From positions 1 to 33,949 of IMG/VR virus record IMGVR_UViG_3300045950_000264: a DNA stretch of 33,949 nt, one strand, 5' to 3'. The notes under the pieces were generated by a model that saw only the letters and a program-made list of their open reading frames with translations, had not been told where the DNA came from and made no database searches. This document shows, one piece after another, positions 5,545-32,637 of this stretch. The position numbers were made by a program, and so were the translations under genes. Within the stretch, counting starts at the first letter, position 1; every line of letters starts with the position of its first letter. This stretch comes from a virus.

Positions 5545-5744
5545 GGAGATTTTTATTGCGAGTCGGCAAATACTTTGAGACCGTCATCACATACGGTGGT
5601 GATAAGCCGGTTATCAGGATTAATAACGAGCCTCTCTGCTGTAAGCATGTAAAAAAGATGCATTGCTGCACTGGGCCTGAATTAGGCATTGTCAGGCTCA
5701 ATATAAACTATTGTTTTGTTTGCGGGAAGAAATTGGAGCGATGA
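5541..5744 (+). CDS. Small cysteine-rich protein (67 aa)
   Basis: The start overlaps the preceding stop (ATGA). The 67 residues include CC near 33-34, CC near 42-43 and a terminal CxxC (CFVCGKK). The overall pattern CCKH...HCCTG...CFVC is compatible with binding one or two zinc ions. No family recognised. The stop overlaps the ATG of the next gene. Confidence 0.6.
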   Translation: MRRFLLRVGKYFETVITYGGDKPVIRINNEPLCCKHVKKMHCCTGPELGIVRLNINYCFVCGKKLER

Positions 5745-6001
5745 ATAATCTCGGCGGCATAAGGCAGATGGAGCTTTTTGAGATCGAAGAGATCAGGAAT
5801 GAGCTCAAAAGGGGGCCTGAGTTTTACACAATTGCCGAAGCCGCCGATATGCTGAAAGTTCACTACATCACCGTTTACCGCCTTGTGAATGTCGGCGACA
5901 TCGCAGCCTCGATGGTGGCCGGATGTTGGAGGATACCTTCGATTGCGCTCAGAGATTATCTTGAAAAAAGACATCCGTTTAATATGCCGGATGACGATTA
6001 A
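5741..6001 (+). CDS. Excisionase/MerR-type helix-turn-helix protein
   Basis: ATG 5741 overlaps the previous stop; the in-frame 5711 start would lie inside that gene. Residues about 29-75 (YTIAEAADMLKVHYITVYRLVNVGDIAAS, then RIPSIALRDYLEKR) match the helix-turn-helix_17/excisionase pattern: a 'tiaEaAemL.vs..TvyrlI..G.i.a....g.wrI....l..yl' domain. Such proteins bind short DNA sites as regulators or as recombination directionality factors. Being the last gene before the promoter at 6015, it is a candidate for the factor acting on the late promoters; that is inference. Confidence 0.8.
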   Translation: MNNLGGIRQMELFEIEEIRNELKRGPEFYTIAEAADMLKVHYITVYRLVNVGDIAASMVAGCWRIPSIALRDYLEKRHPFNMPDDD

Positions 6002-6014
6002 AATCCTTCCTCTG

Positions 6015-6070
6015 TTTTAGCACATTTTACAGTCATCAGTAGCATCATCTGATACCCTCTGAGGTAAAAG
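6015..6070 (+). promoter_or_regulatory. Candidate late promoter for the lysis operon (Plys analogue)
   Basis: TTTTAGCACATTTTACA (6015-6031), then 18 bases, then TGATAC (6050-6055), then 8 bases, then GTAAAAG (6064-6070). The same arrangement, including both spacings, occurs at 12747-12802. TTTACA and TGATAC read as weak -35 and -10 boxes 18 bases apart. The conserved TTTTAGCA part upstream would be a site for an activator. In Mu, C-activated late promoters sit before the lysis gene and before gene I, the same two places as here. Confidence 0.6.
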
Positions 6071-6090
6071 CATCAAAGGAGGGCATTCAG

Positions 6091-6396
6091 ATGAAGCTTT
6101 TAGAGAAACTTTCCGAAATTAAATCCACAGTTAAAAGGGTGCTGCCTGACAGCATAATCTTCATAGCGCTTGTAATTGCGCTGTTGACAGGCTTTTACAA
6201 ATTTCTGCCGAATCCATTGCAGGTACTGATATCAAAGATAATCCTCGTGAGCGCCGGATTTATGCATGCGCACATCACCCGGAAGATCGCATTCCCATCT
6301 GTGAACTGGGATAGCTCAAGAGACGACAAGATGAAAAAGCTGCTCGTGATCGCTCTGTATGTGATCTTCATTTACGCTTACGCACAGGGAGGGTAA
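6091..6396 (+). CDS. Putative phage holin
   Basis: The 101-residue protein has three hydrophobic stretches: about 21-38 (IIFIALVIALLTGFYKFL), about 44-60 (VLISKIILVSAGFMHAH) and about 84-98 (LLVIALYVIFIYAYA), with charged linkers including ITRKIAFPSVNW. Size, topology and position immediately before an endolysin fit a holin that opens the inner membrane at the end of the lytic cycle. A strong AAAGGAGG precedes the start. It is the first gene after the candidate late promoter. Confidence 0.75.
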   Translation: MKLLEKLSEIKSTVKRVLPDSIIFIALVIALLTGFYKFLPNPLQVLISKIILVSAGFMHAHITRKIAFPSVNWDSSRDDKMKKLLVIALYVIFIYAYAQGG

Positions 6397-6406
6397 AAAG
6401 ACAGTT

Positions 6407-7033
6407 ATGAGTTGTGAGTTAAGAGTTAAGAGTTTAAGAATAATTATTCTGGCTGTTGCTCTGCTGCTCTGCTACACTGATGCGCTTGCACTACAGCGCT
6501 GCAAGCAATATGCCCATGATGTTAAGCGATTTCACAACTGGTATTTCGGCATAGACTTCCCTTCTGAATACTCGGTCGCTCAGCTTCACAAAGAAAGCCT
6601 TTGCAGGAATCACATCTTGAGCTCAGACGGCATAGGCTCAGAGGGGCCTGCACAGATCACCTTCAGGGTGTGGAAAAGGCAACTCGAAGACGAAGGCATT
6701 CATGAGATCAAGACGATTTCGAATCACCTAAGAGCGCAGGCATATATCAATCGCGTCAGCTATGACAATGCAGCCTGCAAAAAGCTCTGGGTGATGTATC
6801 AGATATACAACGGCGGGACTCTTGTGAATGCTGAAATCGCAAGGGCAGGCGTATGCGACTGGTCTAAGGCTTATAGAACTTGCAAAAGAAAAGATATTGT
6901 TTTCGGCAGCGGGCAGAGGCGCAATGCCTGCGATATTAACTACGAGTATTCAAAGAAGATATATGAGATTGCAGAAGGCTACTATCGGGGACAGTCCCCT
7001 AAAGAGAAGCGGGGAGGCTATGAATACTGGTAG
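6407..7033 (+). CDS. Endolysin, lytic transglycosylase (SLT-like), secreted
   Basis: The 208-residue protein starts with an export signal (RVKSLRIIILAVALLLCYTDALA, cleavage likely after ALA at about residue 29). The catalytic-domain motif is KESLCRN with the presumptive glutamate at 63, then SSDGIGSEGPAQITFRVW (80-84 GPAQI), and IYNGG further on. These match the ES..GxxGxxQi..aW...YNaG pattern of soluble lytic transglycosylases, which cleave peptidoglycan between MurNAc and GlcNAc. It sits directly after the holin. Four later cysteines may form disulfides in the periplasm. Confidence 0.8.
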   Translation: MSCELRVKSLRIIILAVALLLCYTDALALQRCKQYAHDVKRFHNWYFGIDFPSEYSVAQLHKESLCRNHILSSDGIGSEGPAQITFRVWKRQLEDEGIHEIKTISNHLRAQAYINRVSYDNAACKKLWVMYQIYNGGTLVNAEIARAGVCDWSKAYRTCKRKDIVFGSGQRRNACDINYEYSKKIYEIAEGYYRGQSPKEKRGGYEYW

Positions 7034-7187
7034 CCGTATCACATGGGCAGAGTTTGTTGAATGCAGTAAAAAGCACTCATGCCCTAACTGTGAGATAGGA
7101 GAGCCTGAGAAATGTTGGAATGAGTGTATGGAGTGCTTTGCAGCTTATGTGGAGTGGACTGTAAAGACAGTAATGCGTAATGCGTGA
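7020..7187 (+). CDS. Small cysteine-rich protein (55 aa) in the lysis operon
   Basis: ATG 7020 lies inside the endolysin 3' end, with GGGGAGG 5 bases upstream. The product is MNTGSRITWAEFVECSKKH..., with six cysteines in CSKKHSCPNCEIG, then CWNECMEC. Two CxxC/CxxxC-type pairs suggest a small metal-binding fold. No family recognised. Confidence 0.5.
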   Translation: MNTGSRITWAEFVECSKKHSCPNCEIGEPEKCWNECMECFAAYVEWTVKTVMRNA

Positions 7188-7205
7188 AGCGTGAAGCGTC
7201 AGTAG

Positions 7206-7224
7206 GACAGGCGTCTCGCCTGTC
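7206..7224. repeat. Perfect 8-bp hairpin GACAGGCG-TCT-CGCCTGTC
   Basis: This inverted repeat lies between two lysis genes and lacks a following T run, so it is more like a dispersed palindromic repeat unit than a terminator. Similar GACAGGC/GCCTGTC palindromes are common in intergenic DNA of some bacterial genomes. Confidence 0.5.
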
Positions 7225-7251
7225 AGAGTTGAGAAGGAAGGGTGAATAGAG

Positions 7252-7695
7252 ATGTATGCAGCATGGTGGTCAATGATCGGCTTTGGACTTAAGTACTGGA
7301 AATACATTGTCTCATCCCTTGCAGCATTGGCTTTAGGCTTTGGTGCTGCATGGTTTATTCAGGGTGTGAGACTTAACTATGCAAAATCTGAAGTCTTAAA
7401 CCTCAAATCTCAAATACAAATATGTCAGGATGCGAATGTGGCAAATCAGGAGACGATAGTAAAACTAAAGACCGAGATCGAGAGCGCACAGAGTCTTTGT
7501 GAATCAAGGCTCAGGGTGAAAGACAAGGTAATCTCAAGGCTTAAAGAGATAGACGCTTTAAGAGCGGAAGGGCGGAAGCGCGGAAGTGCGGAAGAGGAGA
7601 TAAAGAAGGATGAAAAAGGCATTGATGCTACTGTTGATGATCCTATTCTTCACGAGCTCAATAGGATGTTCAACAAGGCAGATAGTAAAGACTGA
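7252..7695 (+). CDS. Inner-membrane spanin (Rz-like)
   Basis: The 147-residue protein has one N-terminal transmembrane helix at about 18-37 (YIVSSLAALALGFGAAWFI). A long periplasmic coiled coil follows (NYAKSEVLNLKSQIQ, NQETIVKLKTEIESAQSL, VKDKVISRLKEIDALR). This is the layout of Rz-type i-spanins, which join an outer-membrane partner to fuse the two membranes in the last step of lysis of Gram-negative cells. The lipoprotein gene embedded in its 3' end in another frame supports the call. Confidence 0.8.
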   Translation: MYAAWWSMIGFGLKYWKYIVSSLAALALGFGAAWFIQGVRLNYAKSEVLNLKSQIQICQDANVANQETIVKLKTEIESAQSLCESRLRVKDKVISRLKEIDALRAEGRKRGSAEEEIKKDEKGIDATVDDPILHELNRMFNKADSKD

Positions 7696-7876
7696 ATACA
7701 TTAAGCATCAAGTTCCGGAGTTGCCACAGGAGCCGGAATATTATCCTGTGCAGTGGCATATGTCCCATATGTCCTATTGCCTCGATGAAGGCAATGCAAA
7801 GAACCTGCTTAAGAACAGAGAGCTTGACAAGGCATATTCTGAGGAGCTGAGGACAATACTGGAGGGACTGAGGTAA
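7610..7876 (+). CDS. Outer-membrane spanin lipoprotein (Rz1-like), overlapping Rz
   Basis: ATG 7610 lies within the Rz-like gene in a different frame, with GAGGAGATAAAGAAGG in front. The 88-residue product begins MKKALMLLLMILFFTSSIGC, a lipoprotein signal with the lipid-accepting cysteine at position 20. A proline-containing stretch follows (HQVPELPQEPEYYP). Embedded or overlapping Rz/Rz1 pairs are typical. It is longer than the classic 60-residue Rz1, which leaves some freedom for an additional C-terminal helix. Confidence 0.8.
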   Translation: MKKALMLLLMILFFTSSIGCSTRQIVKTEYIKHQVPELPQEPEYYPVQWHMSHMSYCLDEGNAKNLLKNRELDKAYSEELRTILEGLR

Positions 7877-8164
7877 ATGGACGGCATAGGCATACTTAGG
7901 TTTATCGAGCAAGGAGGGGCAATAGCATTAATCGTATTTTTAGCTTTCTTGTTTTTCAGGCTCGAAAGGGCGATGACAAGGCTTCATGAGAGAATGGATG
8001 CAATCCAGAGCGAGCTTATCGAGAAATACGCGCAGAAAGGCGAACTCTACAGCGATATATCGGGATGGAGGGGCGATTTGAGGACATTGACGGACAAGGT
8101 GGATAAATTGAGAGAGGAATTTTTTTACCTCAAGGGCAGGTATGATGAGCTTAAGGAGGAGTAA
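7877..8164 (+). CDS. Membrane-anchored coiled-coil protein, Mu gp25 (DUF2730)-like
   Basis: The 95-residue protein has one transmembrane helix at about 15-30 (AIALIVFLAFLFFRLE). A coiled-coil tail follows (AMTRLHERMDAIQSELIEKY, LRTLTDKVDKLREEFFYLKGRYDEL). Size, architecture and position, just before the gp26/gp27-type genes, match the DUF2730 protein of Mu-like phages, whose role is unknown. It begins immediately after the Rz1 stop. Confidence 0.6.
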   Translation: MDGIGILRFIEQGGAIALIVFLAFLFFRLERAMTRLHERMDAIQSELIEKYAQKGELYSDISGWRGDLRTLTDKVDKLREEFFYLKGRYDELKEE

Positions 8165-8166
8165 AC

Positions 8167-8457
8167 ATGCACCTTAAATCTTTGCGCGGCATGATGCTGG
8201 AATTTCTTAACAGAGTGTATCCCAGCATGGTGATTGAGCTTGACATTATAGGTGTCTTTTATCGTGACTACAGGGATAGTAATATCCGCAAGGCCCTTTC
8301 ATATCTTGTAGATAAAGGCTATGTTGAGGCTATAAAGAAGCCGCATCCTGTCCGCAGATACGATGAACAGGTTTTATACAAAATCACCCCGAAGGGCATT
8401 GACCTTCTGGATGGAACAGAGAACGATAATGGAATACTGCTGGAGGACAGGGAGTAA
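8167..8457 (+). CDS. Winged-helix phage protein in the Mu gp26 position
   Basis: The 96-residue protein LRGMMLEFLNRVYPSMVIELDIIGVFY...NIRKALSYLVDKGYVEAI...LYKITPKGIDLLDG reads as a winged helix with a typical 'kaLayL.dkGyv......Y.iTpkGidLl' ending. This agrees with the small protein found between gp25 and gp27 in many Mu-like phages (often named VpaChn25_0724 family). ATG follows AAGGAGG closely, and its stop overlaps the small terminase start. Confidence 0.7.
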   Translation: MHLKSLRGMMLEFLNRVYPSMVIELDIIGVFYRDYRDSNIRKALSYLVDKGYVEAIKKPHPVRRYDEQVLYKITPKGIDLLDGTENDNGILLEDRE

Positions 8458-8993
8458 TGGGACAGCGATCTAAGGTTGATTTATATGGCCTCCTCGACAG
8501 GATCATTAAGCTGCACACAGGCGAGGAAGGCGGCAGTCCCAAGACTATCGAGGAGATAGAAATAATCCTTCGCGGCGAGGGCTATGACATAAGCCGTGAA
8601 AGCATCCGAAGGAAGCTTAAATCCTCAAAAGAGGTTGCAGCGGTATACCAAAAGTCCCTCGAAGAAGCCAAGATACTGCTCGATGCAGTGAGAAATAATC
8701 CGAATACCGATGTTGTCGAAGTAACGAACTCGCTCCTCGCTCACAGGCTCTTTGAGTTTGCAAAGAGCGTCGAGGAGCTGAACTTCGACGATCCCAGTGA
8801 ATTCGTATGGTCGGTCAATAAATTATCCGATGCACAGGTTAAAGTTGCGAAGTTGAGGCTGGATTTTCAGAAGGGCTTTGAGGCTGCGAAAAAAGAGATC
8901 ATGCAGAAGGTCTCTGCCGAGCTTTCAAGGCAGCCCGAGATCAAGGGCAGGCTTGTAAATATCATAGAAGGCATAAGGGCTGAGCAAAAATGA
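8457..8993 (+). CDS. Terminase small subunit, Mu gp27-like (DUF3486)
   Basis: The 178-residue protein MGQRSKVDLYGLLDRIIKL...SPKTIEEIEIILRGEGYDISRESIRRKLKS has the N-terminal helix-turn-helix of DUF3486 proteins. A helical region follows (NSLLAHRLFEFAKSVEELNFDD...KLSDAQVKVAKLRLDFQKGFEAAKKEI). It recognises phage DNA and hands it to the large subunit during headful packaging. It overlaps the large-terminase start (ATGA at 8990-8993). Confidence 0.85.
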   Translation: MGQRSKVDLYGLLDRIIKLHTGEEGGSPKTIEEIEIILRGEGYDISRESIRRKLKSSKEVAAVYQKSLEEAKILLDAVRNNPNTDVVEVTNSLLAHRLFEFAKSVEELNFDDPSEFVWSVNKLSDAQVKVAKLRLDFQKGFEAAKKEIMQKVSAELSRQPEIKGRLVNIIEGIRAEQK

Positions 8994-10495
8994 GCATCCT
9001 CAAGGAACTGGTCGGAGATATAGATGCTGAAAAAGAGAAGCGCATATCAAGGGCAGAAAAAGACTTTTTCTTTTTTGCAAGGACATATTTTTCGCATCTG
9101 TTCTCTGTGGAGCCTGCCGAATACCAGCGGACAATCATAGATATAATCAACGATGGCAGACTCAATAAAAGGCATATAGGCAGGCTTAAGCGCTATATCC
9201 ATGAGCGGTATGCGAATATACTGGCGCCTTCGGACAGGCTTGAAGGCATTATAGACATAGAGCCGCGCGGCCACGGCAAGTCAACAAGGATGAGCATAGT
9301 TTTTCCGCTGTGGCGCGCTATTACAGGGAAATCAAGGTTTGTGGTCATCTTTTCGTCATCAGAACAAAGGGCGGCGCAGATACTTGATGATATAAAGTTT
9401 GAGCTTGCGGAGAATGAGGCGGTAATAGAAGACTTTGGCGATGTAAGAGGCAAGATATGGAAGGCGAACTTTATACACCTGAAAAACGGCTCTGCCATAG
9501 CCTCAAGGGGCGCGGGGGCGTCTGTAAGGGGCATGAGATTCAGGCAATACAGACCTGACCTTGTGATATGCGATGACATAATGAAGGACGACATAGCCCG
9601 TTCAAAGACCCAGAGAGAGAAGCTGTATCAATGGTTTAAAAAAGTGGTATTGCCGCTGGGCAAGGATATTTTTGTGGTAGTGGTCAATACTATTTTTCAT
9701 AATGATGACCTGCCCTCCAGACTGCTCAAGGAATCCGTGGACGGCAAGCTTAAAGGGTGGCTTGCATTGAGGTTTTCCGCGATCGTCTCAGGACATCCTC
9801 TGTGGCATGAATACTGGAGCATGGAGAGCCTTGAAAAGAAAAAACAAGAGATGGGATCAATCGCATTCAGCACGGAGTATATGAATGAGCCGCTTTCGGA
9901 GGAGGACAGGCTCTTTAAAGAGGACTGGCTTGAATTTGATGCTGAAGAAGCCGAACTCAAGGAGATGAGGGTCTTTGCAGGCGTTGACCCTGCATTAGGC
10001 TCGGGAGATTATTCCGCGATTGTAACAATAGCAGTTGACAGGGACGGCATTGCACATGTGGTAGACGCCTTTGCCGAAAGGCTTACTCCCGATGCTTTCA
10101 TGGACAGGATCATACAGAAATACATCAGATACAAGCCCCAGCTTATAGCCTTTGAAGAGGTGGCATTTCAAAAGGTGATGAAAGAGCATCTCATCAAGAA
10201 GGCCGCGCAATATGGGGTGTACCTGCCTGTCAAAGGCGTTACCCCGGGCAGATTGAGCAAGGAGATGAGGATAGCCAAGATAAGCCCGATGGTGGAAAAC
10301 AAACTTATCAGATTCAGGGAAAACCAGAGATTGCTTATAGAGCAGCTCCTGACATTCCCCAGAGGCGATCATGACGACCTTCTGGACGCTTTGTATTATG
10401 CAATCCAGATAATCGGAGGCGTTTCAAAGGAGCCGATGGTCTTTTATATGGGCGTGCATAGAGATACAAGGGCGATATTTAGGGGGTATAGATAA
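8990..10495 (+). CDS. Terminase large subunit, Mu gp28-like
   Basis: The 501-residue packaging motor has an ATPase domain with Walker A EPRGHGKST (91-99) and Walker B LVICDD (191-196). Its RNase H-like nuclease domain shows GVDPALGSGDYSAIV (Asp333), LIAFEEVAF (Glu389/390) and DHDDLLDALYYA near 460. The domain order and length agree with Mu-type large terminases, which package DNA from integrated copies. The neighbours are the small subunit and the portal. Confidence 0.92.
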   Translation: MSILKELVGDIDAEKEKRISRAEKDFFFFARTYFSHLFSVEPAEYQRTIIDIINDGRLNKRHIGRLKRYIHERYANILAPSDRLEGIIDIEPRGHGKSTRMSIVFPLWRAITGKSRFVVIFSSSEQRAAQILDDIKFELAENEAVIEDFGDVRGKIWKANFIHLKNGSAIASRGAGASVRGMRFRQYRPDLVICDDIMKDDIARSKTQREKLYQWFKKVVLPLGKDIFVVVVNTIFHNDDLPSRLLKESVDGKLKGWLALRFSAIVSGHPLWHEYWSMESLEKKKQEMGSIAFSTEYMNEPLSEEDRLFKEDWLEFDAEEAELKEMRVFAGVDPALGSGDYSAIVTIAVDRDGIAHVVDAFAERLTPDAFMDRIIQKYIRYKPQLIAFEEVAFQKVMKEHLIKKAAQYGVYLPVKGVTPGRLSKEMRIAKISPMVENKLIRFRENQRLLIEQLLTFPRGDHDDLLDALYYAIQIIGGVSKEPMVFYMGVHRDTRAIFRGYR

Positions 10496-11757
10496 TGGCA
10501 GAGGACAAAAAGGATAAAGCAGTTCTGGCAGCAGAGGTAATCAGCCCGTTTGCGGCAAAGCTCGGCGCATTCACGGAGTATATGCCTAATCCTGATGAAC
10601 TCCTCCAGGATATAGGGCAGACTCTTGAAATATACGAGAAAATGAAGCTCGACGCCCGGATATCATCGCTTTTAGATATCAGGAAGGCCGATGTGTTGAA
10701 TTATCCGTATTATCTCGTTCCGGGCGATGACACTCCGCAGGCGCAAGAAATATCGGACTTCGCGGGCAAGACGATTAAAGCCTTAAATCTCTATCAGGAG
10801 ATGAAGGAGTTCTTGTCCGCTCTTGATCTCGGCTTTTCTCTCTCAGAGGTCATATGGTCATTGCAGGATGGCAAATGGAGACCGGTTGCACTGAAAAACA
10901 GGAAGGCTGAACGCTTTATGTTTCAGCCTGACGGAACGCCGGTGTTATTGAATCAGGGACAGAAGACGCCGCTCGATGAGCCGTATAAATACATCGTCCA
11001 CACTCATAACTCAGGAGCGGAGAATCCTTACGGCAATGCGGTTCTGAAGCAGTGTTACTGGCCGTGGATATTCAAAAAAGCAGGATGGAGGTTTTGGCTT
11101 ACTGCCGCAGAAAAGTTCGGAGTTCCTACTGTGCTTGCTCTTTTTGAAACGGATGATGAGGATAAGGCAAGGGAGCGGGCTAAGATGTTGGCAGAAATGC
11201 TTTCAGGCATCCAGAGCGACGCGGCTGTGGCATTGGCAAATGTCAAAGAAGTAACTACGCTGGAGGTTAAGGGAGACCTGTCATCGTTCAAAACGCTCAT
11301 AGAGGCTTGCGATGTGCAGATCTCTTATGCCATCACGGGCCAGTCGCTGGCAAGCGGTGAAGGGCAATACGGCACACGCGCACAGGCAGAAGTGCATGAG
11401 GGGCAATTAGACTCGCTTACGGGCGGCGATGCAAAGCAGCTTGCTTATACGCTCAATAAGACTCTGATAGCGTGGATCGTCGAGTTGAATTACGGCCCAG
11501 ATGCGCCCAAGCCGATCCTCGAGTTTGATACGGATGATTATGCCTCTTGGGAGATAGTTAAGGATGCGATTGACAGGGGAGTGCCTATCTCACAGAGCGC
11601 GCTCTACACGAAATACAATATCCCCAAGCCTGCTAATGATAAGGATATATTCATAATCAGCCCTGATTTTAGAAAAGCAGACAGTTCAAACAGCTCAAAC
11701 AGTTCGAGCAGTTTAAATATGAGCGACGGTTTTTTTTTGCGGACACGTCGCCGTTAG
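10495..11757 (+). CDS. Portal protein, Mu gp29-like (DUF935); C-terminus displaced at a T9 run
   Basis: The protein forms the dodecameric portal ring through which DNA enters. Recognisable DUF935 blocks are ITGQSLASGEGQYGTRAQAEVHEG, YIVHTHNSGAENPYGNAVLKQCYWPW and KKAGWRFWLTAAEKFGVPTV. The in-frame product is 420 residues and ends SDGFFLRTRRR, shorter than the roughly 500 residues usual for the family. The missing C-terminus (FADTSPLAKD..., AEELDRAVDKF..., LAEKLRDAFLFSFLLG) is present in the -1 frame directly after nine T's at 11730-11738. Either slippage there makes the full portal, or one T is missing from the sequence. A Ser/Asn-rich linker (SSNSSNSSSS) precedes the T run. Confidence 0.9.
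   Translation: MAEDKKDKAVLAAEVISPFAAKLGAFTEYMPNPDELLQDIGQTLEIYEKMKLDARISSLLDIRKADVLNYPYYLVPGDDTPQAQEISDFAGKTIKALNLYQEMKEFLSALDLGFSLSEVIWSLQDGKWRPVALKNRKAERFMFQPDGTPVLLNQGQKTPLDEPYKYIVHTHNSGAENPYGNAVLKQCYWPWIFKKAGWRFWLTAAEKFGVPTVLALFETDDEDKARERAKMLAEMLSGIQSDAAVALANVKEVTTLEVKGDLSSFKTLIEACDVQISYAITGQSLASGEGQYGTRAQAEVHEGQLDSLTGGDAKQLAYTLNKTLIAWIVELNYGPDAPKPILEFDTDDYASWEIVKDAIDRGVPISQSALYTKYNIPKPANDKDIFIISPDFRKADSSNSSNSSSSLNMSDGFFLRTRRR
11730..11738 (+). other. T9 homopolymer: slippage or frameshift site in the portal gene
   Basis: Frame 1 reads GGT TTT TTT TTG CGG to a stop at 11755-11757. The -1 frame reads TTT TTT TTT GCG GAC ACG and stays open without a stop through the F gene to 12746. Adding one T (or -1 slippage) gives GFFFADTSPLAKDAP..., which restores a normal-looking portal C-terminus and then runs into gpF. 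Confidence 0.65.
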
Positions 11758-11984
11758 CGAAAGATGCGCCTCCGCATCTAAAGCAGGAAATAGCAAAGGC
11801 AGAGGAGCTTGATAGAGCGGTAGACAAGTTCCAGCGGGAGATTACGGACATCTTCATAGACAGCTTTCCCATCAGCGGCATATCCGATCTGAAAAAATTA
11901 CAGGATAATGCTTTACAAGTTCCGGCGTCGAAGGAACTGGCAGAGAAGCTGAGAGACGCATTTTTATTTTCATTCCTGCTCGGC

Positions 11985-12746
11985 ATGGATCACGCAGGCA
12001 GCGATATGGAGTTGTCGGATGATATTGACCTTGAAACTTTCCCTGAACCTGTGCCTTTTGATGATTCTATGAACTTCCTGAAAGCCCGAATACCTATATC
12101 AAAAAAGGCTTATAAAGATTTGGAATCAAAGCTCCGATTCAGGGCATTCAGCGTGGCAAGGCTCGCGCAATACGATGCTATCGAGGCTGTCAGACAGCAG
12201 CTTATCAAGGCGCAGGACGAAGGGAAGACGGTTGCTCAATTCTGGGAAGACGCCGGAAAAGACGAGATTCTCAAAAAAGCGGGGTTTCACAAGTCCGACC
12301 CGTGGTATTGGGAGACGGTGTTCAGGACAAATGTCCAGACAAATTACAACGCAGGCCGTTTAATGCAATTCAGGCAGAACCCTCCAAAGATGCTTGAGTT
12401 CGTAGGCATCATGGACAGCAGGCAGTCGAGGATATGCAGACAGAGATCAGGAGTGCGAAGACCGGCGAATGATTCGTGGTGGTCTTCAAACTGGCCGCCG
12501 CTTCATTTCGCATGCCGCTCAACTGTGCGCGGCATCGATGCTGCGGAAGCGAAAGCATTGGATCTGACGGTTACACCTTCAAAAGAACTGAAGTCGCTCG
12601 TGTCCGTGCAGAAAGGTTTCGGCGGCGATCCGCTTGAGACGGAATCATTCTATCGCATGACTCCGGAGATGAAAAAGCGGGCAAGGCAATACGGCGTCGA
12701 GGATGAAATTAAAGAGGCTGCAAAAAAGTTATCCGTGAATTATTGA
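11985..12746 (+). CDS. Head morphogenesis protein, Mu gpF-like (SPP1 gp7 family)
   Basis: The first ATG in this frame is 11985, but the frame is open upstream to the portal T9 run, so the protein may be made as a portal-F fusion. From about 12058 the sequence matches the Mu F domain: PFDDSMNFLKARIPISKKAYKDLE, RFRAFSVARLAQYDAIEAVRQQLIKAQDEGKTVAQFWEDA, and ETVFRTNVQTNYNAGRLMQF. The C-terminal SPP1 gp7-type minor-head region ends PPLHFACRSTVRGID. It is a minor capsid protein needed for head assembly. I see no good ribosome site before ATG 11985, which favours read-through from the portal. Confidence 0.85.
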   Translation: MDHAGSDMELSDDIDLETFPEPVPFDDSMNFLKARIPISKKAYKDLESKLRFRAFSVARLAQYDAIEAVRQQLIKAQDEGKTVAQFWEDAGKDEILKKAGFHKSDPWYWETVFRTNVQTNYNAGRLMQFRQNPPKMLEFVGIMDSRQSRICRQRSGVRRPANDSWWSSNWPPLHFACRSTVRGIDAAEAKALDLTVTPSKELKSLVSVQKGFGGDPLETESFYRMTPEMKKRARQYGVEDEIKEAAKKLSVNY

Positions 12747-12813
12747 TTTTAGCAGATTTTACAATGCCCGCCTTTATTTCCTGATACGCTACACCGTAAA
12801 AGGAGGTGTAGCG
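12747..12813 (+). promoter_or_regulatory. Candidate late promoter before protease/scaffold gene (PI analogue), with start-site palindrome
   Basis: TTTTAGCAGATTTTACA (12747-12763), 18 bases, TGATAC (12782-12787), 8 bases, GTAAAAG (12796-12802): the same layout as at 6015-6070. In addition CGCTACACC (12787-12795) and GGTGTAGCG (12805-12813) form a 9-bp palindrome spanning the expected transcription start and the Shine-Dalgarno AAGGAGGT (12800-12807) of the next gene. The palindrome could be an operator, or a hairpin that covers the ribosome site in read-through mRNA but is incomplete in mRNA started at this promoter. Confidence 0.6.
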
Positions 12814-12814
12814 T

Positions 12815-13618
12815 ATGGCATTAAGGCTTCAACTTGCAAAGCCGGGGAAGTTTGGAATAGACGGAACCGTTGTTACAGAACAGGCTCTCAGGGATGCGGT
12901 AGAGACTTTCGAGTCCGATGTCCCTATAACATTAGGTCATCACCTTGCCGATTTCATGCCTGCTTTCGGATGGGTGAAATCGGTTGAGTATTCAGAGCCC
13001 GAGAAAATCCTTTATGGAGATGTAGAACTTTCGGATGTCTTAAAAGATGCCTTTGAGGAGGGGCTTTATAAAAAATGGTCTGTAGGTATTCATAAACGGG
13101 CATCTGACGGAAAACGCTTTCTTCATCATCTCGCATTCCTCGGCGCAGTGCCGCCAAAGATCAAGGATCTTAAAATCATGGACAGCAAAGTAATCAATAT
13201 GTCCGATGTTCAGGAGACATGGACATTCCCTGATGAATCTAAACAAAAGGAGGAGGTAAAGATTATGCCAAAGGATGAAGGCAAGGACCTTGAGCTTGCC
13301 GACGCTAAAAAGAAGGCGAGCGATCTTGAGACAGCGCTCAGAAACGCAAAGAAGGATGCGCTCAAAAAAGCAATTGAAGGAAAAGTCCCTGCTGCAAAGG
13401 CAGGGCTGGTGATGGAGCTTGCGGATCATCTTACTCTCGATGAGACTATCGAGTTGAGCGATGATGCAGGCAAGAGGAAGGTGTCTGCATTTGATATTCT
13501 GAGCGAGATATTCGCCTTGATCCCGCTGCCGGTCAAACCCGGAAGTGTGGATATGGGCGATGCGCCGGATACGGGCGGAAGCTCGGTTGACGCCGCAGCA
13601 ATGATAAAAAGCATGTAA
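12815..13618 (+). CDS. Capsid maturation protease with C-terminal scaffold, Mu gpI-like
   Basis: The 267-residue protein has an N-terminal protease domain (FGIDGTVVTEQALRDAVETFE, PITLGHHLADFMPAFGWVKSV, KWSVGIHKR, HHLAFLGAVPPKIKDL), the pattern of Mu I and relatives. It cleaves the scaffold and sometimes other head proteins. From about residue 150 it becomes a charged helical scaffold region (DLELADAKKKASDLETALRNAKKDAL). An in-frame internal start (13265) would make the scaffold alone. It follows the second candidate late promoter. Confidence 0.88.
   Translation: MALRLQLAKPGKFGIDGTVVTEQALRDAVETFESDVPITLGHHLADFMPAFGWVKSVEYSEPEKILYGDVELSDVLKDAFEEGLYKKWSVGIHKRASDGKRFLHHLAFLGAVPPKIKDLKIMDSKVINMSDVQETWTFPDESKQKEEVKIMPKDEGKDLELADAKKKASDLETALRNAKKDALKKAIEGKVPAAKAGLVMELADHLTLDETIELSDDAGKRKVSAFDILSEIFALIPLPVKPGSVDMGDAPDTGGSSVDAAAMIKSM
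13265..13618 (+). CDS. Scaffold protein from an internal start in the protease gene (Mu gpZ analogue)
   Basis: Inside the protease gene, AAAAGGAGGAGGT (13245-13257) lies 8 bases before ATG 13265, which is in the same frame as the protease and would give a 117-residue protein equal to its C-terminal scaffold part (MPKDEGKDLELADAKKKAS...). Mu makes its scaffold Z from an internal start in gene I in just this way. The ribosome site is stronger than that of most genes in the window. Confidence 0.7.
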   Translation: MPKDEGKDLELADAKKKASDLETALRNAKKDALKKAIEGKVPAAKAGLVMELADHLTLDETIELSDDAGKRKVSAFDILSEIFALIPLPVKPGSVDMGDAPDTGGSSVDAAAMIKSM

Positions 13619-16322: not shown

Positions 16323-16813
16323 CTGTTCTTGAAGTATTCAGAGAGCACATCGAGAAGACAACGGGCGTAAAGGCTCTGCTTGAGCCTCAGCCGGTGAAGC
16401 TGCACGAACCGCATTTGAGGATCATGGCGCCGACTGGATGGGATTTCAGGTTTGAGGACTGGACGACAAATGAGACTGCCAAGCTCTACACCGCAAAACT
16501 CGATGCGCTTGTAACATTGACAGCCTATGGCGATGGGCCTGATGTCTATCTGGGCGAATGCTTAAATGCTTCGTTTAAGGTCAACCGTTATTTCCGCGAT
16601 CCAGTTGGTATACCCATAGTCTCGCTTGTAAAAGGCGCATGGAAGGCATCCGGCGCAGGCAGCATAACAGTAACCGGCCAGAGGAAGCCCGGAGGCCAGC
16701 ACTTTAAAAACGAGGATGAGGCTAAAGGCGAAAAGCCGTATCTCTATGAGGAGAGCTTTGAAGCGAGCATATATTTCCCGTATGCGGAATTAATAACTGT
16801 TCAAACTGTTTAA
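16304..16813 (+). CDS. Probable tail terminator/neck protein in the Mu gp37 position
   Basis: The 169-residue protein has an alpha/beta start (EEIAVLEVFREHIEKTTGVKALLEPQPVK) and beta strands to the C-terminus (SFEASIYFPYAELITV). Position between the G-like protein and the DUF2635-like/sheath genes is that of Mu gp37, a small neck or tail-terminator protein. I do not recognise a decisive motif; the call rests on size and order. Confidence 0.55.
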   Translation: MAKEEIAVLEVFREHIEKTTGVKALLEPQPVKLHEPHLRIMAPTGWDFRFEDWTTNETAKLYTAKLDALVTLTAYGDGPDVYLGECLNASFKVNRYFRDPVGIPIVSLVKGAWKASGAGSITVTGQRKPGGQHFKNEDEAKGEKPYLYEESFEASIYFPYAELITVQTV

Positions 16814-16858
16814 GCCGTTTGAATAGTTTAAACAGCTAAAGAAAAGGAGGTCTCAGAA

Positions 16859-24275: not shown

Positions 24276-24626
24276 ATGCAGATCAAGATCGGAGCGATAG
24301 GCTTAACAGTTGAAGGCATTGAGGACCTCAATCAGGAGATAGGTCTGATTATCGCTACTCCTCTCGGCTCTATCCCTCATATGCCGGAGTTTGGAAGCAG
24401 GATACCCTTTTATCTCGATAGACCCCAGAACATAGCGCGGCCTTTGATAATAGCAGAGGCTTACAGGGCGATAAAGAAAAATACAACGAGGTTTAAGCCG
24501 TCAAGCGTCAAGCTCGTGAGCGCATCGCCGAACGGAAAGATGGCGTTTAAGATTACGGGCGTCCCTACGGATGCTCAGACGGATAAAGAAGTCGCTCTCA
24601 ATGTTTTAGCAGATTTTACAAGATGA
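24276..24626 (+). CDS. Baseplate wedge protein, gpW/gp25-like
   Basis: The 116-residue protein has IEDLNQEIGLIIATPLGSIPHMPEFGSRIPFYLDRPQNIARPLIIAEAYRAIKKNTTRFKPSSVKL, the gpW/T4 gp25 signature (EF-G-l pattern with a conserved EFGSrip). It sits in the baseplate wedge between V and J, as in P2 and Mu. Its last codons coincide with the third copy of the 17-bp late-promoter element. Confidence 0.9.
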   Translation: MQIKIGAIGLTVEGIEDLNQEIGLIIATPLGSIPHMPEFGSRIPFYLDRPQNIARPLIIAEAYRAIKKNTTRFKPSSVKLVSASPNGKMAFKITGVPTDAQTDKEVALNVLADFTR

Positions 24627-24647
24627 GACAGAAGGAGATTGTAATAT
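24604..24647 (+). promoter_or_regulatory. Third copy of the 17-bp late-promoter element, before gene J
   Basis: TTTTAGCAGATTTTACA (24604-24620) is identical over 17 bases to the copy at 12747, but it lies in the end of the gpW coding region (codons for LADFT). The -10 at the usual distance is not TGATAC; the nearest candidates are TGTAAT (24640-24645) or TAATAT (24642-24647). GTAAAAG is missing. It may be a weaker late promoter for the distal baseplate and fibre genes, or a chance or relic copy. Confidence 0.4.
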
Positions 24648-24653
24648 CTCAAT

Positions 24654-25781
24654 ATGATAGACCTGAAGACATTGCCTGAGCCTGAGTTTGTTACTGTTGA
24701 TTGGAACCGGCAGTATGCAGAACTCGTAAAATCTTATGAGCAGATAGTCGGAATGCCTTTATCAAAAGGCCAAGTAGAATCCTTGATTATTGCCGCATTT
24801 GCCTATCGTGAAAACCTTATCCGCATCGCTATAAACGATACTGCAAAGCAGAATCTCCTCGCGTATGCACGAGGCGAGATGCTGGATCATCTCGGTGCAT
24901 TTCCGGGTGTAACGAGGCTTCCTGCGGCAGCGGCAATTACGACATTACGCTTTACTTTTGAGACTGCATTAACAGCGCCTCTGCTTATCCCGGCAGGCAC
25001 GAGGGTAATGAGCAAGGACAATAAAGTCGTTTTTGCAACCTCAAAGGATATTAATGCCGGCGCAGGCAGCGCATATATTGATGCAGAAGCATCATGCACA
25101 GAGACAGGCCAAACAGGCAACGGCTATCTCGCCGGAGAGATTAACCAGCTTATAGATCCTTTGCCATATGTGCAGAAAGTCGAAAATACGACTCTGACAT
25201 ACGGCGGCGCCGACATCGAGAGCGATGACCACCTGCGGATGCGGATACAGATCGCTCCTGAGTCTTTCAGCACGGCAGGACCGGAAGGAGCATACGAATA
25301 CTGGGCGAAAACAGCGCATCAGGATATTGTTGATGCGGCTGTCTGGAGTCCAGAACCCGGAAAAGTAAAAGTTGCGCCTTTGCTGAAAAACGGTGGCATC
25401 CCTGATGCCGATATGCTTGCGCTTGTCTCGGGGGCGCTGAATCACGAAAAACGCAGACCCTTGACCGACAGCGTAATCGTCGAGGCTCCTGTGATTGTAA
25501 ATTACAGCATTGATGTCCAACTGTATATCTATAGTTCATCCTCGATGCTTTCGGATGCGATCCTTACAAAGGCAAAAGAAAGTCTCCAGAGCTATGCTGA
25601 CTCTGTAAAAGAGCGGCTCGGAGTAGATATCGTTCCTGAGCAGATAGTGGGAATACTCCAAAAGATAACCGGAGTATACAGGGCAGTGGTTATGCAGCCT
25701 GCATACATTCAGCTTGCGCAGAACCAAGTAGCAATTTGCGTAGGCATCACAGTAACAATCGCGGGGAGCGTAGATGGCTAA
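24654..25781 (+). CDS. Baseplate protein J-like
   Basis: The 375-residue protein has the Baseplate J family layout: IIAAFAYRENLIRIAINDTAKQNLLAYARGEMLDHLGAFPGVTRLPAAAA, TCTETGQTGNGYLAGEINQLIDPLPYVQKVENTT, GGADIESDDHLRMRIQIAPESFSTAGPEGAYEYWAKTA, and a C-terminal beta region. It forms the baseplate outer ring with gpW and gpI. The ribosome site is AGAAGGAGA. Confidence 0.92.
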   Translation: MIDLKTLPEPEFVTVDWNRQYAELVKSYEQIVGMPLSKGQVESLIIAAFAYRENLIRIAINDTAKQNLLAYARGEMLDHLGAFPGVTRLPAAAAITTLRFTFETALTAPLLIPAGTRVMSKDNKVVFATSKDINAGAGSAYIDAEASCTETGQTGNGYLAGEINQLIDPLPYVQKVENTTLTYGGADIESDDHLRMRIQIAPESFSTAGPEGAYEYWAKTAHQDIVDAAVWSPEPGKVKVAPLLKNGGIPDADMLALVSGALNHEKRRPLTDSVIVEAPVIVNYSIDVQLYIYSSSSMLSDAILTKAKESLQSYADSVKERLGVDIVPEQIVGILQKITGVYRAVVMQPAYIQLAQNQVAICVGITVTIAGSVDG

Positions 25782-28556: not shown

Positions 28557-29645
28557 ATGGCTATAACCATATCAGTTACTGATGCATTAAGGCAGTCAGT
28601 AGAGGCTGCCAGCGGAGGTAAAAACACAGTGCTTTATGACAGCAAGGGATATCCGAGCATTATGGTCAGGATACCCAGATTTAACCTTCAGGATATTGAC
28701 GCATCTCTTGGCACCGGCGCTCACCCTGCGTTTATCGTTAACGGGGTAGAGAAAAGTGAAATCTTTATCGGAAAGTTTCAGGCAATAGTGCACGATGGCA
28801 ATGCCTTGAGCCTGCCAGCGCAGGACCCTGCAGTGAACCTGAATTTTGATCAGGCTCTTGCCTTCTGCAAGGCAAAGGGGACGGGCTGGCATGTAATGAC
28901 CAACGCAGAATGGGCGGCATTAGCCCTCTGGTGCTGGAAAAATGGCTTTATGCCGAGAGGCAATAATGATAACACTAAAGACCATTCCGCAGCCTACGAG
29001 AGCGCCGTGAAAGCCACGATTGGCATGGATAATAGAACTCTAACAGGCTCTGGACCCGCAAGCTGGTATCATGACAACACACCCTTTGGCGTTGCAGACC
29101 TCAACGGGAACATTTGGGAATGGACTGGAGGTATGAGACTTAATAACGGAGAGATTCAAATATTACAGAACAACGATGCTGCCGATAATACAAAAGACCA
29201 GAGCGCCTCATCAACCCTCTGGAGGGCGATACTGGCATCGGATGGCTCTCTTGCCGATCCCGGAACGGCAGGCACATGCAAATACGACTCGGTGAATGCA
29301 GGGACAGTTGGACAGGTTGGCCCAGCACAACTTGACGATGTCAGGGACAATTCCAATGCCCCGGCATCCGGAGACAATGGACACACTTATAACACATTCC
29401 AGAGTCTTGTTGCTGACACAGGAATCACACCACCTGCAATACTAAAAGCACTCGCCCTTTTCCCAATTGCCACAACAGGACTGGGCGATGATGGAATGTG
29501 GGTAAGGAACTATAACGAGCGGCTACTGCTTCGCGGCGGTAACTGGAGCGATAGCTCCGATGCGGGGGTGTTCGCGCTTAATCTGGATAATGCGCGCTCG
29601 ATCGTGAGCGGCACTGTGGGGTTCCGCCCCGCCTGTGTCTTATGA
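28557..29645 (+). CDS. DGR target protein: FGE-sulfatase/C-type-lectin-fold variable protein
   Basis: The 362-residue protein is probably the virion's host-binding tip. The formylglycine-generating-enzyme-like fold is shown by AFCKAKGTGWHVMTNAEWAALALWCW, GVADLNGNIWEWTGG and the C-terminal RGGNW...AGVFALNLDNARS...VGFRPA. These are the motifs of the C-type-lectin-related fold used by many diversity-generating retroelements. No catalytic FGE cysteines are apparent, as expected for a binding version. Its last 39 codons contain the variable repeat. Compared with the template, residues 331, 332, 335, 344, 351, 352 and 353 are changed and codon 348 is silently changed. AAAGGAGG precedes the ATG. It follows tail fibre genes. 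Confidence 0.9.
   Translation: MAITISVTDALRQSVEAASGGKNTVLYDSKGYPSIMVRIPRFNLQDIDASLGTGAHPAFIVNGVEKSEIFIGKFQAIVHDGNALSLPAQDPAVNLNFDQALAFCKAKGTGWHVMTNAEWAALALWCWKNGFMPRGNNDNTKDHSAAYESAVKATIGMDNRTLTGSGPASWYHDNTPFGVADLNGNIWEWTGGMRLNNGEIQILQNNDAADNTKDQSASSTLWRAILASDGSLADPGTAGTCKYDSVNAGTVGQVGPAQLDDVRDNSNAPASGDNGHTYNTFQSLVADTGITPPAILKALALFPIATTGLGDDGMWVRNYNERLLLRGGNWSDSSDAGVFALNLDNARSIVSGTVGFRPACVL
29530..29637 (+). repeat. Variable repeat (VR) of the diversity-generating retroelement
   Basis: The 108-bp segment aligns without gaps to the template at 30086-30193 (offset 556). There are nine mismatches, at 29548, 29550, 29559, 29586, 29600, 29608, 29610, 29611 (all A in TR to G here) and 29614 (A to C). 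None of the 85 non-adenine TR positions differ; 9 of about 23 adenines do. The last 22 bases (GTGGGGTTCCGCCCCGCCTGTG) are identical and GC-rich, fitting the initiation-of-mutagenic-homing sequence. Confidence 0.95.
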
Positions 29646-29681
29646 TTATCTGTTCTCTGAAATCTGTCAATCTGTTTTTTG

Positions 29682-29703
29682 GAGGCGGGCTAATGCCCGC
29701 CTC
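29682..29703 (+). other. 9-bp hairpin downstream of VR
   Basis: GAGGCGGGC (29682-29690), loop TAAT, GCCCGCCTC (29695-29703) is a perfect stem 44 bases past the VR end. DGRs such as that of phage BPP-1 need a similar hairpin with a 4-base loop just behind the VR for efficient homing, though there it lies much closer. ATTTTTTT follows 8 bases later, so it may also end target-gene transcription. Confidence 0.7.
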
Positions 29704-29730
29704 GCGGAAAATTTTTTTAAAGGGGGCAGA

Positions 29731-29736
29731 TATAAT
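29731..29736 (+). promoter_or_regulatory. Candidate -10 box for avd/TR/RT transcript
   Basis: TATAAT lies 11 bases before the avd ATG, immediately after the hairpin and T run, so it would start a separate DGR transcript. I see no good -35 at 16-18 bases upstream (the region is A/T-only). There is no Shine-Dalgarno before avd, consistent with a very short leader. Confidence 0.45.
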
Positions 29737-29747
29737 ATAATGTCGGC

Positions 29748-30080
29748 ATGGATAATTTGGTCATATATCAGAAGGTTTATGATTTCACATTATATCTATT
29801 CCCTGTTGTTGACAAATTTCCGAAACATGAGAAATTTGTTCTCTGCACGCATATTAAGTCATGCGTGCTGGACATTGCAAGGGAGATCATCAGGGCAAAT
29901 AAAAGTAAAAATAAGAAGCCGATTCTGTATGACATTGATGTAAGGATAGAAGAACTGAAATTCCTGCTGAGACTGGCTCATGACAGGAAGTATCTATCTC
30001 ACAAGAGTTACGAGCATAGCGGTAAGCTTGTAACTGAAATAGGGCGGCTGTTGGGAGGGTGGATTAAAAGTGTGGGTTAA
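29748..30080 (+). CDS. avd: DGR accessory variability protein Avd (four-helix bundle)
   Basis: The 110-residue protein MDNLVIYQKVYDFTLYLFPVVDKFPKHEKFVLCTHIKSCVLDIAREIIRANKSKNKK...IDVRIEELKFLLRLAHDRKYLSHKSYEHSGKLVTEIGRLLGGWIKS has the four-helix pattern of Avd/S23-like proteins. 'FpK.ekf.L..qi......i...i..A' and the R...Y.....Y......igr.LggWi.s ending are clear. By family knowledge it forms a pentameric barrel that binds the reverse transcriptase and TR RNA and is needed for cDNA synthesis. It lies directly before the TR: the stop is 5 bases upstream of the first TR base. Confidence 0.92.
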   Translation: MDNLVIYQKVYDFTLYLFPVVDKFPKHEKFVLCTHIKSCVLDIAREIIRANKSKNKKPILYDIDVRIEELKFLLRLAHDRKYLSHKSYEHSGKLVTEIGRLLGGWIKSVG

Positions 30081-30085
30081 GGGCA

Positions 30086-30193
30086 TTCGCGGCGGTAACT
30101 GGAACAATAGCTCCAATGCGGGGGTGTTCGCGCTTAATCTGAATAATGCGCGCTCAATCGTGAACAACAATGTGGGGTTCCGCCCCGCCTGTG
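30086..30193 (+). ncRNA. Template repeat (TR) of the DGR
   Basis: This is the invariant donor copied by the reverse transcriptase. Read in the target frame it encodes RGGN WNNSS NAGVFALNLNNARS IVNNNVGFRPAC. Ten asparagine codons (AAC/AAT) are placed at or around the changed positions, the usual design because randomising both A's in AAY reaches 15 amino acids without stop codons. Its frame starts after avd and is not part of a credible gene. The homology starts weakly earlier (TGTGGGTTAAGG at 30071-30082 resembles TGTGGGTAAGG in front of the VR). Confidence 0.95.
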
Positions 30194-30304
30194 CCTGTGT
30201 AATGTTTTTAGAGAGGATGTCTCTACGGAGCGCCTCCAGTGTCGTACACAGACAGGCTCTTAATCCCTGCCGAAAGGCAAAAATTGGAGAGGCACTGTGT
30301 AGTG
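30187..30304 (+). ncRNA. Structured RNA at the TR 3' end (candidate cDNA-priming/spacer region)
   Basis: GCCTGT (30187-30192, the very end of TR) pairs with ACAGGC (30252-30257) and TGTGTA (30196-30201) with TACACA (30245-30250). They close a junction containing hairpins TAGAGA-GGATG-TCTCTA (30209-30225) and GGAG-CGC-CTCC (30227-30237). Downstream, TGCC-GAAA-GGCA (30268-30279) and CACT-GTGT-AGTG (30293-30304). In the BPP-1 system the roughly 140 bases after TR fold with it and supply the cDNA primer; this region is in the equivalent place. Confidence 0.65.
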
Positions 30305-30340
30305 AGTACGGATAATCCATAAAATTGCACATGCCGCATA

Positions 30341-30460
30341 ATTTCGGTCGGTTAATAGCTCCACTCCTGTTGGAGAATTATTAGGCCCGAAATCTCAGAA
30401 TCGTAGAAACGGTCGGTTGGCAGCTCCACTGAGAATTGCCAAGCCCATCAAAAACCGTTT
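30341..30460 (+). ncRNA. Two tandem copies of a structured RNA motif with covarying stems
   Basis: Unit 1 (30341-30393): ATTTCGG pairs with CCGAAAT (30387-30393), TAATA (30353-30357) with TATTA (30379-30383), CTCCA with TGGAG. Unit 2 (30407-30460): AAACGG pairs with CCGTTT (30455-30460), TTGGCA (30417-30422) with TGCCAA (30437-30442), CTC with GAG. Both keep TCGGTT, GCTCCACT and GAGAATT at matching places, while stem bases differ in a compensated way (AAT/ATT versus GGC/GCC). No coding frame explains this. It lies between TR and the 61-aa ORF/RT. I do not recognise a described RNA family. Confidence 0.7.
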
Positions 30461-30485
30461 TACGGTTTTAAGATTTCGGGCTTTT
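30451..30485 (+). terminator. Hairpins with T run competing with the tandem RNA motif
   Basis: AAAACCGT (30451-30458), TTT, ACGGTTTT (30462-30469) forms an 8-bp stem that shares bases with the unit 2 outer stem. AGATTTCGGGC (30471-30481) is fully complementary over 11 bases to GCCCGAAATCT (30385-30395), which overlaps the unit 1 outer stem; TTTT follows it. Both would form only when the units open, as in an attenuator. Confidence 0.5.
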
Positions 30486-30504
30486 CGTTTCAGGAGGCTG
30501 AGCA

Positions 30505-30690
30505 ATGGTTGAGAAGAAAGACGTTAAGGAGTGGAAAAAAGTACTGGTGAGATGTTTAGAAGGGCTGTCAAAAGAGGGAATTGTCCCGCAGGATGTGAAG
30601 GAACTTACCGGCAGAATTGTCCTTGATCTGAACATGAGTCAGGGCGGCATTACGGATATGGACATATCTGTTAAGAGGAAATTCAAATAG
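30505..30690 (+). CDS. Small protein (61 aa) before the DGR reverse transcriptase
   Basis: ATG 30505 follows CAGGAGG. The 61 residues VEKKDVKEWKKVLVRCLEGLSKEGIVPQDVKELTGRIVLDLNMSQGGITDMDISVKRKFK are lysine-rich and probably an alpha/beta or helical mini-domain. It ends 3 bases before the RT GTG. No family recognised. Gene position and a good ribosome site suggest a DGR accessory (nucleic-acid or RT binding); this is inference. Confidence 0.6.
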   Translation: MVEKKDVKEWKKVLVRCLEGLSKEGIVPQDVKELTGRIVLDLNMSQGGITDMDISVKRKFK

Positions 30691-30693
30691 TCT

Positions 30694-31869: not shown

Positions 31870-32637
31870 ATGAAGAAAAGCTTTCTCAGTTATCTGGGCG
31901 GCAAATCACTGCTTGCAAGCAAGATTATTCCTCTGATACCGGAACATTCCTGTTACTGTGAAGTCTTTGCCGGTGCAGCGTGGATGCTCTTCAAAAAGGA
32001 AGAGTCGAAGGTCGAAGTTATTAATGATATTAATACAGATCTGGTAACTCTTTATCGCGTAGTGAAAAACCATCTTGATGAGTTCGTCAGATATTTAAGA
32101 TGGATACTTATAGCGAGGGACGAGTTTGAGCGCTTTAAGGCTGAAAATCCGGAGGCCCTCACGGATATACAGAGAGCAGTGAGGTTTTACTATCTACTCA
32201 GGACAGGATTTTCAAGTCGTATTGATAATCCGAGCTTTGCGATCGGAACGGTGAGGCGGCCAAACCTTAATCTTTTAAGGATCGAAGAGGAGCTATCCGA
32301 GGCGCATCTCAGGTTGTCCAGAGTGTATATCGAGAATCTGCATTACGAGAAGCTTATAGAGAGGTATGATAGGACGCATGTGTTTTTCTATCTCGACCCT
32401 CCCTATCACGGAGTCGAGGATTATTACGGCAAGGGGATATTCGGTAGGAACGATTTTGCAAAACTGAGGGATATTCTAAAGGGCATTAAGGGCAAATTCA
32501 TAATGTCCATAAATGATACGAAGGAGATACGAGGACTTTATAAGGATTTCCGCATCGAGGAGGTAAAAACATCATATTCGGTAAATGGAGGTAGTAAAAA
32601 GCTGGGCGTTACAGAATTGCTGATTATGAACTTTTAG
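31870..32637 (+). CDS. dam: D12-class N6-adenine DNA methyltransferase (Dam-like)
   Basis: The 255-residue protein has SYLGGKSLLASKIIPLIP (7-24), the SAM-binding CEVFAGAAWML (30-40) and the catalytic YLDPPYHG with DPPY at 176-179, the order of class-alpha D12 adenine methylases. The variable recognition part lies between. As the last phage gene it occupies the place of mom in Mu and probably protects phage DNA from host restriction. A CAGGGAGG ribosome site precedes it. Specificity (for example GATC) cannot be read from the sequence with certainty. Confidence 0.9.
   Translation: MKKSFLSYLGGKSLLASKIIPLIPEHSCYCEVFAGAAWMLFKKEESKVEVINDINTDLVTLYRVVKNHLDEFVRYLRWILIARDEFERFKAENPEALTDIQRAVRFYYLLRTGFSSRIDNPSFAIGTVRRPNLNLLRIEEELSEAHLRLSRVYIENLHYEKLIERYDRTHVFFYLDPPYHGVEDYYGKGIFGRNDFAKLRDILKGIKGKFIMSINDTKEIRGLYKDFRIEEVKTSYSVNGGSKKLGVTELLIMNF

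Follow-up and report, generated by a model that had tools for sequence, protein, structure and literature searches.

The sequence analysed here is a single IMG/VR record (IMGVR_UViG_3300045950_000264) taken over its full 33,949 nt, called the window below. It carries a set of Mu-type genes (Mu-transpos_C, GemA, Mu Gp27, Portal_Mu and Mu F), with an AAA/TniB-type ATPase occupying the place of MuB. The features of its late promoters, all on the plus strand, are as follows.

5741-6001, plus strand: gene for an 86-aa HTH_17 winged-helix protein (Pfam HTH_17, E 1.8e-12), the proposed late activator
6015-6031, plus strand: late box 1, TTTTAGCACATTTTACA, before the lysis genes; kept in G003, G001/G002, G008 and G088, diverged in G012
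6046-6093, plus strand: predicted hairpin 1, pairing the ribosome-binding site and start of gene 6091 with sequence that lies ahead of the predicted transcript start (-19.1 kcal/mol, z -3.4)
6050-6055, plus strand: -10-like element TGATAC of predicted promoter 1, 18 bp past the box, conserved in position among relatives and weak in sequence; predicted start near 6064
6091-6396, plus strand: holin-like gene, first after promoter 1 (weak PHROG holin match, E 0.033)
6407-7033, plus strand: endolysin-like gene (PHROG endolysin, E 2e-4)
12747-12763, plus strand: late box 2, TTTTAGCAGATTTTACA, before the head protease gene; same place in G003, G008 and G012, and before a protease-like gene in G001 and G088
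12782-12787, plus strand: -10-like element TGATAC of predicted promoter 2; predicted start near 12796
12784-12816, plus strand: predicted hairpin 2, with 12-bp perfect arms, covering the start of gene 12815 (-20.4 kcal/mol, z -5.4)
12815-13618, plus strand: head maturation protease gene (Mu I-like), first after promoter 2 (PHROG E 5e-19)
24604-24620, plus strand: late box 3, TTTTAGCAGATTTTACA, at the 3' end of gene 24276-24626 and before gp47; same place in G003, G004, G008 and G012
24639-24645, plus strand: -10-like element TTGTAAT of predicted promoter 3; predicted start near 24652
24654-25781, plus strand: baseplate gp47/J gene, first after promoter 3 (PHROG baseplate wedge, E 5e-90)

Several other features of the genome can be recorded here. 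ORFs 7252-7695 and 7610-7876 overlap, and the second begins like a lipoprotein gene; they look like an Rz/Rz1 spanin pair. At 8457-10495 the genes for the Gp27-like protein and the terminase share 64% and 47% identity with those of the closest relative, G003 (3300045950_000162), most of their neighbours being about 90% identical, and this difference in identity suggests a mosaic exchange. A reverse transcriptase gene (RVT_1, 30694-31731) lies downstream of gene 28557-29645, the end of which resembles the peptide of ORF 30070-30315, and the region 28557-31731 resembles a diversity-generating retroelement that has both a target and a template. A gene for a D12-class adenine methyltransferase (31870-32637) lies near the right end, roughly at the place of Mu mom.

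The 17-bp box in the window and in related phages

A sequence-only reading of this DNA had described two late promoters of identical architecture, at 6015 and 12747, in which a 17-mer is followed at fixed spacings by TGATAC and GTAAAAG. Indeed, all 29 specified positions match between the two sites, the spacings hold, and the single difference within the 17-mer is C or G at position 9. Both sites are real and the count was incomplete, since a third 17-mer, identical to that at site 2, lies at 24604-24620 on the same strand. Within the window the 29-position pattern holds as a shared architecture at sites 1 and 2 only; as a conserved unit it was rejected, and the 17-bp box alone was kept. The next best match to the full pattern in the window, 20 of 29 positions, is the third box copy itself. 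The downstream part, TGATAC-N8-GTAAAAG, occurs at sites 1 and 2 of the window and of G003 (with one base changed, TGATAG, at G003 site 2) and is absent at site 3 and in distant relatives.

About 2e-5 exact matches to the 16 fixed bases of the box would be expected by chance in 34 kb, both strands counted. The three boxes scored 28.8-30.8 bits in a weight-matrix scan, against 10.6 for the best of all other places in the window, so that no further comparable box was found there. Across 19 sites the information content is close to 2 bits at most positions of the box and falls at both edges, with conservation returning weakly at offsets 35-39, the -10 region, and at offset 43. Box 3 overlaps coding sequence, and part of its conservation could therefore reflect protein constraint. 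The box can be written as a direct repeat, TTTNGCA-NN-TTTNGCA, with a period of 9 bp, and its period-9 score was reached by 1 of 500 shuffles; an alternative period-10 repeat, TTTTA-N5-TTTTA, was weaker (12 of 500).

A motif search in related phages, the check that had been proposed for the two promoters, found the box directly before the lysis and protease genes, and also before gp47 genes, in relatives at about 30-70% protein identity; protein matches to the window are mostly about 25-70% identical in these phages, G003 excepted. In G003 three boxes stand where they do in the window, one of them differing by a single mismatch, and G004 (L071; gp47 57% identical) has an exact box before gp47. 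In G001/G002 (HTH protein 50% identical), one box overlaps the stop of the HTH gene and precedes an ORF that, by eye, resembles a SleB-type cell-wall hydrolase, and a second precedes an ORF that reads like a head protease. One copy was found in G005 and two in G088, a genome from a search of Thermodesulfobacteriota. Three, one of them diverged, were found in G012 (prophage pieces in a Thermodesulfobacteriota MAG), with a perfect TATAAT at offset 37 behind each. The four boxes of G008 (3300017593_001763) all end in GCA, not ACA, and lie before a lysis-type gene, the protease gene, a homologue of gene 16859 and gp47. At 16797-16836 of the window, before gene 16859, where G008 has its late box, there are interleaved inverted repeats, TTCAAAC...GTTTGAA and CTGTTTAA...TTAAACAG.

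Two more distant phages have altered boxes, with both copies changed alike. L161/G009 carries CTTTGCAAATTYCGCA twice, before an amidase-like gene and the protease gene, with the same 18-bp gap to TGNTAG. In L147/G011 the two boxes are CCTTGGCAGGTTTGGCG and TTTTGGCAGGTTTGGCA, which precede the gene for an M15-like peptidase and that for the protease, and the exact 14-mer core TTGGCAGGTTTGGC is limited to these two places in the 1.9 Mb G011 genome. Copies inside one phage thus differ by 0-3 mismatches, and boxes differ between phages, as would be expected if the box is read by a DNA-binding protein that acts in trans and is specific to each phage.

No box was recognised in L149 or L150, and the sequence of L156 stops at the gene preceding the protease gene. 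Repeats of the type TTTGAAC/GTTCAAA lie before the protease gene in L147 (14525-14560), L149 (15154) and L150 (15102-15112); these TTGAAC-type repeats were set aside, and L147 has a proper box nearby. Additional scans for relatives yielded none with a new box, and TerL used as a single-protein query gave no matches. An exact-box scan of viral_contigs returned, among the matches listed, mostly unrelated sequences, and became informative once gene context was added.

Geometry of the predicted promoters

In the relatives a -10-like element lies 18-21 bp downstream of the box, and the -10 region at offset 35-39 recurs as a T-starting, A/T-rich stretch. The elements at sites 1 and 2 are poor, the exact spacing differs between phages (offset 35-38), and the slot for a -35 hexamer is variable (TTTACA, TTTGCA or TTCGCA). 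A -10 element at offset 35-42 would put the transcript start near offset 49 and the centre of the box near -41, over the -35 region.

The positions of start codons, taken from ORFs at 23 sites, fall into two groups. At 13 of the 23, including site 3 of the window, the likely start codon is at offset 49-55, at or a few bases past the predicted transcript start; the other ten have it at offset 64-79, most with a recognisable Shine-Dalgarno sequence. With a predicted start near 24652, the mRNA for gene 24654 would thus be nearly leaderless, and by the same geometry about half of the sites would give late mRNAs with almost no leader.

At sites 1 and 2 the start of the first late gene falls within a predicted hairpin. 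When the upstream part was shuffled, 0 of 200 shuffles were as stable at site 1 and 2 of 200 at site 2; the predicted accessibility of the ribosome-binding region at site 2 was no lower than in shuffles (89 of 200). According to the folding predictions these hairpins may hide the ribosome-binding site in read-through RNA, and the transcript from the late promoter would be without the 5' arm, by analogy with T4 gene e. There, a hairpin hides the ribosome-binding site in read-through RNA and the late transcript is made without the 5' arm (PMC3014915); here the arrangement is predicted and is sporadic among relatives. Hairpin 2 is lost at G003 site 2, and a similarly strong hairpin occurs elsewhere only in G008, before gp47, being absent at most sites. 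The hairpin switch was therefore rejected as a general feature and is kept as a side hypothesis.

A BldC-type protein as candidate activator

The sequence-only reading recognised no C/Mor homologue and proposed another activator, perhaps the product of gene 5191 or gene 5741. The first part is borne out: in the five phage records searched, which are the window (G000), G003, G001, G008 and G009 and include some fragments, the Mor domain (PF08765) had no match at E<=1. Two weak Mor hits in G088 were both below the cut-off. The choice between the two genes can now be narrowed. The product of gene 5741 is favoured because the gene adjoins box 1, is found in every phage in which the region is present and has a recognition helix that co-varies with the box, and gene 5191 is disfavoured for the reasons given below.

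Gene 5741-6001 lies directly upstream of box 1, and in each of the eight phages with the region present (the window, G003, G001/G002, G008, G012, G088, L161 and G011) this gene or its homologue is found upstream of the box that precedes the lysis genes. The distance from gene to box is usually within about 30 bp, extending to about 0.2 kb in L161 and about 1.3 kb in G011, with other sequence between. The protein has no close match among 50,697 annotated phage records. Its AlphaFold model (mean pLDDT 76.8) has as top Foldseek matches BldC-DNA complexes, RdfS and the Pukovnik Xis, with a best E of 3.6e-3 at probability 1.00 and none reaching E 0.001; Pfam, model and Foldseek agree on the HTH_17-type winged-helix fold of the BldC type.

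Streptomyces BldC binds 9-bp direct repeats (PMC5859096, PMC11963761), where Arg30 makes contact with guanines that follow a T and are spaced by 9 bp. The bottom strand of the late box has TG at positions 1-2 and 10-11. Arg47 of the 5741 protein is equivalent to BldC Arg30 and is kept in all members but L161; there the arginine expected at the TG steps is a glutamate, yet the CA/TG steps are kept.

Furthermore, changes in the protein track changes in the box. When eight phages, of which two are near-duplicates, were compared pairwise, phages with more different recognition helices also had more different boxes (distances correlated at r 0.86; partial correlation 0.86 with the remainder of the domain taken into account; p 0.007 by exhaustive permutation), and the rest of the HTH domain gives r 0.20. 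The recognition-helix segment was fixed from the BldC comparison ahead of a sliding scan, in which the correlation peaks at that helix. In a control, 2 of 382 windows from two virion proteins reached r 0.86. The signal appears to come mostly from two divergent phages, L161 and L147.

It is unlikely that the box is bound by a different protein, be it the product of gene 5191, of some other early phage gene, or a host factor. Gene 5191 is a conserved early gene (phrog_2113) and was the other candidate of the sequence-only reading. It was found by BLAST in 4 of the 8 phages, with a divergent homologue seen by eye in G001 and with short upstream sequence available for the search in G012 and G088, and it is not adjacent to the box; on this record it is disfavoured. 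Gene g8167 has a weak winged-helix match and no match in L161, which still has the box pair. Box variants that are peculiar to each phage and go with changes in the helix of the HTH protein would be hard to account for by a host factor. A search of open libraries, with partial coverage, found no report of such a late activator.

A proposed late switch and its relation to known systems

Probably, then, a late activator encoded by the phage itself, the product of gene 5741-6001, binds at the boxes and would switch on the lysis, head and part of the tail genes. From the computed results, namely three exact boxes on one strand, gene positions in relatives, agreement of boxes within each phage, helix-box co-variation and absence of a Mor match from the phage records searched, we infer binding by the 5741 protein, activation, transcript starts and timing. 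In this model the BldC/excisionase-type winged-HTH protein would be made ahead of the late phase and would bind TTTNGCA-NN-TTTNGCA as what is probably a head-to-tail pair, covering about -49 to -33 of every late promoter and centred near -41. The bound protein would enable RNA polymerase to work from a weak -10 element that lies 18-21 bp past the box, and late-phase transcripts of the lysis, head and part of the tail operons would begin, which is the job of protein C in Mu.

The same overlap with the -35 region could be read in the opposite sense, with the box as an operator at which the HTH protein or another repressor keeps the late genes off until induction. Proteins of the HTH_17 type can repress, as does the chlamydial Euo, a tandem-domain protein resembling TorI/Xis-type excisionases (PMC4989314). 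Repression is nonetheless improbable here: the promoters have no consistent -35 element beyond the box and most of their -10 elements are weak, which suits an activator, and gene 5741 immediately precedes the lysis promoter, as the C gene does in Mu. A -35 element for an alternative or phage sigma factor is very unlikely, even though TTTACA-N18-TGATAC resembles a sigma-70 promoter; a nearly invariant 17-bp direct repeat far exceeds a -35 hexamer, the hexamer slot itself varies, and no sigma factor was found in the subset of window proteins scanned. Mu-like genomes do have repeated protein-binding sites for transposase, but that the boxes are transposition, packaging or replication sites, not promoters, is scarcely credible for three internal copies on one strand, each followed at once by the start of a late gene and having a -10 region and a start codon at set distances.

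Under the activator model the layout resembles that of Mu. In Mu the activator gene lies just ahead of the lysis promoter, and the candidate activator gene 5741 likewise directly precedes it. Lambda CII, a small phage activator, acts at direct repeats over the -35 region, as is proposed here, and differs from the 5741 protein in fold and half-site. The claim that late promoters occur at the positions of Mu Plys and PI under an activator other than C/Mor is supported by the sequence comparison with relatives. As in the Mu set of Plys, PI, PP and Pmom served by C (PMC4461284), there are several predicted late promoters, including ones before the lysis and protease genes, and the predicted activator site lies next to or over the -35 region of promoters with non-consensus elements (PMC4461284). 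The match to the Mu set is partial: the third predicted promoter is before gp47 and not before gene P, no other box was found in the window, and in particular none ahead of the DNA methylase gene at 31870. Further differences from the C system are that no Mor/C match was found and that the site is a direct repeat of 9-bp period.

The likeness to BldC (PDB 6AMK, 6AMA; PMC5859096) is one of predicted fold and HTH_17-type domain, together with a putative site made of 9-bp direct repeats whose TG steps recur on one strand after 9 bp. The number of repeats that BldC occupies is variable (PMC5859096), whereas the phage gene proposed here would encode a dedicated late activator acting at a fixed position near -41. 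The excisionase-type regulators RdfS, Xis and Euo belong to the same winged-HTH group. RdfS and Xis act in excision, unlike the role proposed for the 5741 protein; RdfS can also activate transcription, and no consensus site was found for it (PMC11963761).

On balance, the window appears to represent a Mu-like lineage in which a BldC-family activator and a 9-bp direct-repeat box replace Mor/C, the box and the recognition helix co-evolve, and near-leaderless mRNAs arise at about half of the promoters. The new element proposed here, from sequence comparison, is Mu-type late control by a BldC-type protein. If this is correct, it would provide a late switch for Mu-like phages without Mor/C, and late-gene activation would join the known roles of BldC/excisionase-type proteins. 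The phages would then also offer naturally paired variants of protein and site, in which to study how this winged-HTH fold recognises DNA, and the box can be used as a marker for late operons in related prophages.
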